A stretch of 64,000 bases of DNA from an uncultured Bacteroidota bacterium (GTDB lineage: Bacteria > Bacteroidota > Bacteroidia > Flavobacteriales > Flavobacteriaceae), in assembly GCA_902598525.1 (NCBI GenBank), contig CACKBZ010000002.1, positions 124,001-188,000 of the forward strand, written 5' to 3'. Below the pieces are notes generated by a model. That model did not search any database. It worked only from the letters and a program-made list of their open reading frames with translations, and was not told the DNA's origin. The number at the start of each line of letters is the position of its first letter. The first letter of the stretch is position 1. The translations under genes were made by a program, and so were the position numbers. Positions 15,463-16,617 of the stretch are shown in pieces.

Positions 15463-15536
15463 GGTCCTATAGCTCAGTTGGTTAGAGTAGATGACTCATA
15501 ATCATTTGGTCCCTGGTTCGAGTCCAGGTGGGACCA
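15463..15536 (+). tRNA. tRNA with CAU anticodon (elongator Met, or Ile2)
   Basis: The 74-base sequence folds as acceptor GGTCCTA/TGGGACC, D arm GCTC/GAGT, anticodon stem GATGA/TCATT around loop CTCATAA (anticodon CAT, 15497-15499) and T arm CCTGG-TTCGAGT-CCAGG, with discriminator A and no encoded CCA. The first pair is G-C, so it is not the initiator tRNA. Elongator methionine and lysidine-modified isoleucine tRNAs cannot be told apart by eye. The D and anticodon stems each contain a G-U wobble. Its 3' end is duplicated at 16178-16197, as expected for an integration target. Confidence 0.92.
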
Positions 15537-15544
15537 CCCTTAAA
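15525..15544 (+). repeat. Direct repeat at tRNA 3' end, candidate attL
   Basis: CAGGTGGGACCACCCTTAAA covers the last 12 bases of the tRNA and 8 bases after it. An identical 20-base copy occurs at 16178-16197. Duplication of a tRNA 3' end flanking a short segment is the usual footprint of site-specific integration by a tyrosine recombinase. No integrase gene is present in the segment. Confidence 0.75.
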
Positions 15545-15580
15545 CCCTCTAAGTCCTTGACTATGAGGGTTTTTGTTTTT
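15542..15580 (+). terminator. Intrinsic terminator after tRNA(CAU)
   Basis: AACCCTC (15543-15549) and GAGGGTT (15565-15571) form a stem with a 15-base loop and are followed by a T-rich tract. A related but stronger terminator follows the second copy of the att repeat. Confidence 0.65.
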
Positions 15581-15632
15581 TTGATTTTTTTGTCCGATTC
15601 TTTTTCCGAACCTAAATCCAAACCAAATTAAT

Positions 15633-15640
15633 TATTTTTG
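15633..15640 (+). promoter_or_regulatory. Promoter -7 element of the island gene
   Basis: TATTTTTG matches TAnnTTTG and lies 7 bases before the ATG at 15648. It suggests the small membrane gene between the att repeats has its own promoter. Confidence 0.4.
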
Positions 15641-15647
15641 AAAGTTG

Positions 15648-16046
15648 ATGAACAGAAAATATTTTTATTATATAGTTTTTGGAGTTACATTTTTAACATT
15701 CGGATTGGTTCAAGATTACATCAGACCAAATTATGAAGGAGGAAATGACCTTATAATTTATTTTCTTGGAGTAATTCCCAACCTCCTTCCAGGTATTGGT
15801 CTTCCAAGTATGTTTTATGTAACCATTCCAGAGATTTTTAAACCTAATACATTTATTTACAGAAATAGATTAAGGTGGTCAATAATCATTTCTATGATTG
15901 GTCTAATTGGAAATGAATTCATAACAATTTATACTCCGGGAAGAGGAGTTTTTGATTGGAATGATATTGTATGGACAATTATTGGGGGAATAGTTTTTTA
16001 TTTTCTACATATAACAATTCAAAACAATGGTTCTAAAAGAACCTGA
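15648..16046 (+). CDS. Small four-helix membrane protein inside the tRNA-flanked segment, function unknown
   Basis: I do not recognise this 132-residue protein. It has four hydrophobic stretches, at about 5-20, 35-60, 73-93 and 107-122 (for example WSIIISMIGLIGNEFITIY and IVWTIIGGIVFYFLHITI), separated by short polar loops, and a basic C-terminus ending GSKRT. There is no signal peptide cleavage motif. The TTG start in the ORF track (15645) is replaced by the adjacent ATG, 7 bases after a -7 element. It is the only gene between the two 20-base direct repeats, so it would be the sole cargo of the putative island. Confidence 0.7.
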   Translation: MNRKYFYYIVFGVTFLTFGLVQDYIRPNYEGGNDLIIYFLGVIPNLLPGIGLPSMFYVTIPEIFKPNTFIYRNRLRWSIIISMIGLIGNEFITIYTPGRGVFDWNDIVWTIIGGIVFYFLHITIQNNGSKRT

Positions 16047-16082
16047 ACCGGGGTTGTAGTCAAACCATCTTGATTTTTGAGA

Positions 16083-16101
16083 AGGTTCGTAATACGAACC
16101 T
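16083..16101. repeat. Hairpin 1 of a tandem pair
   Basis: AGGTTCGT-AAT-ACGAACCT is a perfect 8-base-pair inverted repeat with a 3-base loop. It is followed 3 bases later by a second hairpin with nearly the same stem. There is no T-tract, so it is not a simple terminator. Confidence 0.8.
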
Positions 16102-16104
16102 AAA

Positions 16105-16123
16105 AGGTTCGGGCTCCGAACCT
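16105..16123. repeat. Hairpin 2 of a tandem pair
   Basis: AGGTTCGG-GCT-CCGAACCT is a perfect 8-base-pair inverted repeat with a 3-base loop. It shares AGGTTCG with hairpin 1. A further CCGAACCT, followed by AAATCCAAA, occurs upstream at about 15606 near the left end of the segment. Confidence 0.8.
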
Positions 16124-16177
16124 CTTAAATCCAAAAAAGTCAGTATTTACGAAGGGAGTGTAACCTTCCTGTGAGGA

Positions 16178-16197
16178 CAGGTGGGACCACCCTTAAA
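16178..16197 (+). repeat. Direct repeat of tRNA 3' end, candidate attR
   Basis: CAGGTGGGACCACCCTTAAA is identical to 15525-15544 at the 3' end of tRNA(CAU), 653 bases away. The bases before it do not form the rest of a tRNA, so this is a duplicated end and not a second gene. Confidence 0.75.
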
Positions 16198-16222
16198 ACC
16201 CCTCTTCTTGAGGGGGTTTTTT
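16196..16222 (+). terminator. Intrinsic terminator after attR
   Basis: CCCCTC-TTCTT-GAGGGG is followed by six T residues. It sits right after the second att copy, as the first terminator does after the tRNA. One of the two presumably was the original tRNA terminator. Confidence 0.7.
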
Positions 16223-16233
16223 GTATCATGTCA

Positions 16234-16617
16234 TTAATTTATACCCCCAACATAAGTCTTTATTCTTGGACTCATAGCTTGAAGTTTTTCTTTAAATGAA
16301 TCGTTAATATCACCAAGAACAGTTAGACTTTCTACTTTAAACAGCTCTCTAAATTTAATATTTATAGGAGAGCCAAGAACCTTATTGCCAAGTTCTTCCC
16401 ATACATCAGAATTTTCAAACCTTTCAATAAGAGTAGCGGTATTATCCGCTTCATTTAAATACCACTCAAACCTAATTATACCATCATCATTCAAACTATA
16501 TATTACTGGGCATTGTTCATTAATAATGTATTCTTTGATGATTTCAATTTCTTCCGTAAAAGATACATCTATCACTACAGTTACATTTTTATTGGGTTTA
16601 TGTAAGCTTCTTTTCAT
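16234..16617 (-). CDS. Antibiotic biosynthesis monooxygenase-like (dimeric alpha+beta barrel) protein
   Basis: The 127-residue protein has no signal peptide. The pattern RFEWYLNEADNTATLIERFENSDVWEEL, followed by INIKFRELFKVESLTVLGDINDSFKEKL and a terminal YVGGI, resembles ABM/quinol-monooxygenase-like small proteins, in which a beta-rich ferredoxin-like fold dimerises. The enzymatic activity of such proteins is often unproved. It stands alone, convergent with the island terminator. The call rests on fold-pattern resemblance only. Confidence 0.6.
   Translation of the reverse strand: MKRSLHKPNKNVTVVIDVSFTEEIEIIKEYIINEQCPVIYSLNDDGIIRFEWYLNEADNTATLIERFENSDVWEELGNKVLGSPINIKFRELFKVESLTVLGDINDSFKEKLQAMSPRIKTYVGGIN

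Follow-up and report, generated by a model that had tools for sequence, protein, structure and literature searches.

An integrase-less, recently mobile 653-bp gene cassette with attP-like ends at a tRNA(CAU) gene of a marine Flavobacteriaceae bacterium

The locus described here lies in a window of 64,000 nucleotides (the whole stretch of DNA analyzed; contig CACKBZ010000002.1, positions 124,001 to 188,000) from an uncultured member of the Flavobacteriaceae (GCA_902598525.1, referred to as G000). The host is a streamlined marine bacterium with an assembly of 1.17 Mb in 23 contigs, estimated at 79% completeness. A tRNA(CAU) gene is followed by one small gene enclosed between two copies of the tRNA 3' end, and the parts of this arrangement, in window positions, are as follows.

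15463..15538, + strand: tRNA(CAU) gene, the anchor (ARAGORN, anticodon CAT; Rfam RF00005, 69.5 bits), whose last part is the integration site
15525..16177, + strand: 653-bp cassette, from core copy to core copy, recurring as the second cassette in locus L121 and the first in L120
15525..15544, + strand: left core copy, the tRNA 3' end plus CTTAAA
15542..15572, + strand: terminator hairpin of the cassette (fold z -5.3), identical to the left of the 653-bp cassette in L117-L122 at any array position
15593..15601, + strand: left arm site 1 in decayed form (TCCGATTCT), which reads TCCGAACCT in L118, L120, L121, and L122; the intact arm follows at a distance of 12 bp
15605..15613, + strand: left arm site 2 (TCCGAACCT)
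15633..15640, + strand: promoter-like -7 element TATTTTTG (Bacteroidetes TAnnTTTG, motif only)
15648..16046, + strand: cargo gene for a 132-aa VanZ-like small membrane protein (ATG at 15648; weak Pfam PF04892)
16083..16101, no strand: right arm pair 1, inverted (AGGTTCG...CGAACCT), the first hairpin of an earlier note
16105..16123, no strand: right arm pair 2, inverted (AGGTTCG...CGAACCT), the second hairpin of that note
16168..16181, + strand: T-arm-like inverted repeat CCTGTGAGGACAGG, which precedes and enters the right core; varied, comparable half-sites occur at other right ends
16178..16197, + strand: right core copy, a displaced older tRNA 3' end
16198..16216, + strand: displaced terminator ACCCCTCTTCTTGAGGGGG, nearly the same sequence as directly behind the tRNA in genomes G014 and G023

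An earlier note on this DNA, made from the letters alone, had pointed to a 20-base tRNA 3' end repeated exactly 653 bases downstream around a single 132-residue gene, and this observation is real. Exact copies of the 20-mer CAGGTGGGACCACCCTTAAA occupy 15525-15544 and 16178-16197, 653 bp from start to start and within a wider block of 31 nt at 87%, and the only open reading frame inside the cassette is that of 132 aa, from the ATG at 15648 through the stop to 16046. Allowing up to 3 mismatches, the 20-mer pattern has 19 matches in 25 genomes of the genus, all at tRNA(CAU) or cassette ends, and its reversed control has none in the same genomes, which rules out chance. The -7 element proposed for the gene is likewise present as a motif at 15633-15640, as are the two different terminators behind the repeat copies, that of the cassette itself containing CTGTGAGGACAGGTGGGACCACCCTTAAACCCTCTAAGTCC. 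The two hairpins at 16083-16123 exist and fold better than shuffled sequences (z about -4); their nature, however, had to be corrected, as they are inverted AGGTTCG/CGAACCT arm-like repeats. Four copies in alternating orientation start at 16083, 16095, 16105, and 16115 at the right end, and the same repeat occurs at the left end at 15605, with a decayed copy at 15593. Among the 28 tRNAs of G000, each read over 7-20 kb, only tRNA(CAU) is followed downstream by a cassette-end-like repeat of its 3' end of at least 12 nt. Rfam matches below threshold in the cassette region were taken as chance.

The relatives compared with G000 are mostly uncultured marine Bacteroidetes represented by single-cell genomes. 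In related marine Flavobacteriales of this kind, tRNA(CAU) is followed by one to three tandem cassettes of varied cargo, with CAGGTGGGACCACC at the end of each. Several genomes of the genus share rbfA and an FtsX-like protein upstream of the tRNA and an LLM-type oxidoreductase and a transporter downstream, but the genes in between are entirely different (peptidase M15 and CobW in G009, DUF1572 in G011, and other genes in G016, G018, and G008), which makes the tRNA 3' end a hotspot of turnover. Repeat copies stand 653 and 2995 bp behind the tRNA in G009 (locus L120), 4390 and 5043 bp in L121, and 760 and 1910 bp in L128. In G000 the 653-bp unit comes first in line behind the tRNA, in L121 second, and because its left terminator is identical in both positions, the terminator belongs to the cassette; every cassette carries its own tRNA 3' end and terminator. 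The order of cassettes also varies: genome G128 holds three (1295, 4565, and 3608 bp), the first and third of which occur in reverse order in G461. A right-end signature (TTGATWATCA-N12..30-GTGGGACCACC) was found in 5 of 397 family genomes, all of 1.6-1.9 Mb, and its control gave zero matches in the same set.

Comparison with relatives for empty sites, which the earlier note had suggested, points to two candidates. G014 and G023 have no second repeat copy in the stretch fetched, and the displaced copy of G000 with its terminator ACCCCTCTTCTTGAGGGG stands directly at their tRNA, so that these sites look like the state before insertion. Together with the presence of the 653-bp unit at other array positions in other genomes, this bears out the reading of the locus as a footprint of integration. 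The cassette is one member of a multi-cassette, multi-site system anchored at tRNAs, and we have dropped its reading as a lone relic.

Clock-like divergence, which the note had named as evidence against mobility, is not what we find. Among pairs of G000, G022, and G009, the DNA of the cargo gene is 98.7-99.5% identical (dS 0-0.012), compared to 75.4-77.3% for rbfA, which stands just upstream of the same tRNA, and this contrast rules out vertical inheritance of the cassette. Full-length cassette interiors are 94-98% identical in L117, L118, L119, L121, and L122, and dN/dS of the cargo gene is mostly 0.1-0.5 in wider cassette pairs; the gene is kept under purifying selection. The cassette is real, recently mobile, and integrase-less. 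These results also bear on a reading without any mobility, in which tandem duplication of the tRNA would have left the second copy behind as a fragment. The T-arm-like inverted repeat kept at the second copy (16168-16181) is what such a fragment could show, but upstream of that copy there is no similarity to a tRNA beyond this stub, the sequence there is part of the cassette in other genomes, and the cassette has moved horizontally, so that we regard tandem duplication as barely credible.

The ends of the cassettes share a layout. From 17 loci we took the 23 intervals that separate one repeat copy from the next; several are related, which leaves the arm statistics less than fully independent. 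In 21 of the 23, the left end holds, 50-67 bp past the core, a direct repeat of 8-12 nt spaced by exactly 12 bp. Only one run was obtained at any other spacing from 8 to 20 bp (at 15 bp), and a 12-bp-spaced repeat appeared in 51 of 4600 mononucleotide shuffles. In 18 of 21 cases, a match of at least 7 nt to the arm is found at the right end of its own cassette, compared to 88 of 429 cross-cassette pairs, several of which involve cassettes that have GAACC-type arms in common. Arm sequences vary by cassette (TCCGAACC, GTCGAACC, GGTAAACC, GGGTACCA, GTGTACCA, GAGTTCCA, and GGGTAATA). Two further features are found at many other right ends, a palindrome resembling ATTGATWATCAAT and, immediately ahead of the core, a half-site like a T-arm; of these, the 653-bp cassette in G000 has the half-site at its right end and lacks the palindrome. 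The attP of lambda-type tyrosine integrases shows a layout of a core flanked by arms. As far as sequence can tell, the core here matches attB and has arm-type sites to its left and right, and the cassette ends appear to be organized like an attP with its arms, with cargo in place of the integrase. Because one of its arms is mutated, the copy in G000 may be partly decayed.

The cargo is not confined to this tRNA. The protein scores 18.1 bits against VanZ (PF04892), below the Pfam cutoff of 30.1 bits, and its relatives score 11.7-21.2 bits with VanZ always first; by these profile scores it is VanZ-like and lies outside the curated VanZ membership. A scan for the gene with one genome per species gave 47 loci. 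In Flavobacteriales it also stands in arrays beside tRNA-Asp (G008 and G021), and G021 seems to carry it at both tRNAs, its contigs ending inside the gene. Two Cytophagales ("Marinoscillum") genomes have it in arrays bounded by GTCCCGTCCATCCCGC, with seven sites within 13.5 kb of one contig and a conserved right end of about 75 bp, and a CobW GTPase is found both in a tRNA-Met cassette of Flavobacteriales and in a cassette of Cytophagales. The Cytophagales arrays (L364 2461-15939 and L134 275-2004) are integron-like in appearance and lie at a tRNA-Asp-like 3' end, and the conserved right end of their cassettes holds GGTCGTCC repeats. In SAR86, a homologue with 62-67% protein identity occurs in arrays at the 3' end of glmS. 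The sites start exactly at the end of glmS, and the boundaries copy its 3' end, about GTNACNGTNGARTA. Such tandem arrays stand directly behind glmS in L367-L374, for example, at L369 2550-6370. A literature search on SAR86, glmS, and genomic island found nothing.

Duplication of gene 3' ends over short stretches, together with the inverted terminal arms of SAR86 (at least 9 nt in 8 of 29 cassettes versus 43 of 812 cross pairs), would also suit a casposon-like or other DDE/Cas1-type insertion, in which the gene 3' end is a target-site duplication. We consider this most improbable. No Cas1 gene (PF01867), and hence no casposase, was found in the 25 genus genomes, and the cassette at the tRNA-Met site lacks long terminal inverted repeats. 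Furthermore, the right ends carry the T-arm-like half-site that conservative recombination between similar sites predicts.

A discrete unit of 653 bp with defined ends has entered a tRNA 3' end in several divergent genomes, alone or in tandem. The best explanation, unproven and in our judgment probable, is a minimal mobile gene cassette mobilized in trans by a lambda-type tyrosine integrase. The circular form would carry a single attP-like site, in which the tRNA 3'-end copy with its terminator is flanked on one side by two directly repeated arm sites at a 12-bp distance and on the other by inverted arm pairs with the T-arm-like core half-site. An integrase from a phage, a conjugative element, or a helper island could recombine this site with the tRNA; the incoming cassette would then land beside the tRNA, restore its 3' end, supply a fresh terminator, and push older cassettes away. 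Since each new cassette would land at the tRNA and displace its predecessors, arrays would grow from the tRNA outward, as integrons do from attI. The cassette has ends like recombinase sites and no recombinase of its own and therefore appears to be moved by an outside enzyme; we infer that the helper acts in trans and is external.

The earlier note had left open whether the locus is a remnant or an element mobilized in trans, and near-identical cassettes between divergent flanks with conserved attP-like ends fit the second better. As remnants, the cassettes would be decayed ends of larger integrase-bearing islands, deprived of their integrase by deletion, and would now spread only by homologous recombination between the conserved tRNA and downstream genes. 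Integrase-bearing elements are known at tRNA genes of related genomes, and one arm of the G000 copy is decayed. The right ends of G009 and L128 are also swapped, which we read as a sign of recombination between cassettes, homologous and inside the cargo gene. However, most cassettes keep their ends intact and paired, the exact unit changes its position and order within arrays, the flanking rbfA does not travel along, and an integrase stub is absent from every array read. Spread of remnants is therefore unlikely, and mobilization in trans remains our preferred reading.

Matches to the tyrosine recombinase profile PF00589 occur in all 25 genus genomes, nearly always one or two and of Xer size, with extra matches only in G008, G006, and G007. 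In G000, which is 79% complete, the tyrosine recombinases are of XerC/D size only and lie on other contigs; the cassette has its single open reading frame, and the statement that the island lacks an integrase holds. Outside the Flavobacteriales, the search covered 12 genomes reached via cargo loci (eleven SAR86 and one K189A); each SAR86 genome, a complete chromosome among them, shows no more than one or two matches of Xer size. As the sole tyrosine recombinases of G000 and of the SAR86 genomes with arrays, the complete chromosome included, the resident XerC/XerD could be acting on the cassette sites, as with elements that exploit dif. The targets, on the other hand, are the 3' ends of tRNAs and of glmS, which differ in sequence, and not a single dif-like site, and the arms are conserved although, to our knowledge, XerC/D require no arm sites. 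A role of the resident enzymes thus seems very unlikely to us.

A helper integrase with matching arms was not found in the genomes or viral contigs searched, no integrase or integrase stub lies inside any array read, and no circular form of the cassette was seen. Scans of IMG/VR for the cargo gene, the 20-mer, and the right-end signature gave no match, nor did the cargo gene match plasmid or phage records. Pairs of TCCGAACC mark 66 stretches in viral contigs, none with the full layout, and the sole viral match to GTGGGACCACCCTTAAA sits within a coding gene and was rejected. Among the matches listed for GKGTACCA arm pairs, the loci examined look unrelated (repeat proteins or iteron-like regions on G+C-richer phage contigs). 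Between genes of four viral contigs (L205, L225, L247, and L258), GTGTACCA repeats of either orientation form clusters, with no integrase nearby. A small resolvase-like gene is present in 15 genomes and missing from the cassette-bearing G022, G009, G021, and G008. The integrase on contig C4 of G008 was rejected as a helper, as it adjoins mnmE rather than tRNA(CAU).

Some array-bearing genomes hold a further integrase of about 350 aa at tRNA-Met, -Ala, or -Asn; those of the "SYPKVC" group were found at these tRNAs in G461, G500, G501, and G505. They are probably not the helper because, at tRNA-Met and tRNA-Asn, the stretch of the tRNA that is copied involves its anticodon arm and the nearby repeats are, by eye, about 11 bp apart. 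In G461 (L354 11000-16653), the array-anchoring tRNA-Met has an integrase gene (349 aa) just upstream, itself preceded by a duplicate of the 5' part of this tRNA, which suggests a second, integrase-bearing element at its anticodon side. Related integrases of about 350 aa occur at tRNA-Asn in two genomes and at tRNA-Ala in one (L357 795-10818, L355 1646-10717, and L356 10450-10700); in two of the three, incomplete copies of the tRNA are separated by about 9-10 kb. Two Marinoscillum genomes (L360 9533-10696 and L361 9374-10510) carry a divergent tyrosine recombinase homologue in the same gene context that seems, by eye, to be without the catalytic Arg and HxxR residues.

Cassettes targeted to tRNAs have been described in additive flexible genomic islands, and for this reason the system is not a new kind. 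"Ca. Actinomarinales" has small cassettes at tRNAs marked by a direct tRNA repeat (PMC7771536), island fGI-2 of "Ca. Methylopumilus" has 20-nt tRNA-Lys repeats with inserts from 330 bp (PMC10872708), and additive islands of Alteromonas are similar (PMC4119200, PMC5217437). The resemblance lies in a conserved tRNA target, variable cassettes, tRNA 3'-end repeats at their ends, and restoration of a single-copy tRNA. At our locus the position is fixed by a conserved tRNA with rbfA upstream and the oxidoreductase and transporter downstream, the cargo differs among G000, G009, G011, G016, G018, L121, and L128, and the tRNA 3' end is directly repeated at the end of each inserted cassette. Unlike additive islands as described, the 653-bp system has attP-like ends, 12-bp arm pairs, and a travelling terminator; the host of the cassette belongs to the Flavobacteriales; and one cargo family occurs at tRNA-Met and tRNA-Asp and, through a homologue, at glmS. 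What is new is the attP layout together with the phylum-crossing cargo.

Other systems overlap in part. Tycheposons of Prochlorococcus, as described in PMC10872708, are likewise cargo elements targeted to tRNAs in streamlined marine bacteria, of 4-200 kb and with a tyrosine recombinase; the present cassette measures 653 bp and has no recombinase of its own. Integron cassettes and CALINs share the single-gene tandem units, the arrival of newcomers beside a fixed site, and integrase-less arrays that need an enzyme in trans (PMC11389934). In contrast to integrons, the boundary is a tRNA 3' end, arms lie on both sides, and the 653-bp cassette has its own promoter motif; by inspection, no attC box (GTTRRRY/RYYYAAC) is present in the boundary CAGGTGGGACCACC. 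Hitcher elements such as MITEs and PICMI satellites also rely on helper enzymes through DNA motifs alone (PMC11389934, PMC10803314), but no packaging signal, transfer origin, transposon ends, or phage gene was recognized in the 653-bp cassette.

A general integrase-less cassette system may exist in streamlined ocean bacteria, made of single-gene units of a complete attP plus cargo, building arrays at 3' ends of tRNA genes (Flavobacteriales and Cytophagales) and of glmS (SAR86), exchanging the same genes across phyla, and served only by recombinases of transient helpers; we put this forward tentatively, at slightly less than an even chance. If true, it would be an analogue of integrons without a resident integrase. 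Marine single-cell genomes show much lateral gene transfer, and small genomes have few recognizable mobile elements. Cassettes of attP plus a gene would escape tools based on integrases and could explain part of the gene exchange in the sea. In the literature we found no helper recombinase named for additive-island cassettes, and the common 12-bp arm layout offers a concrete handle for tracing it.

Two observations concern neighbors of the cargo gene. A 127-aa gene adjoining the cassette (16237-16617) has a 50% identical relative in the SAR86 loci L151 and L146, which carry the VanZ-like gene too. In L135 (4605, 5628, and 8521), the cargo gene occurs with the 135-aa gene of the tRNA-Asp cassette in reversed order, near tRNA-Gly/tRNA-Leu, and the repeats there resemble a 5' fragment of a tRNA (GTTTCGAAAATAGCT).
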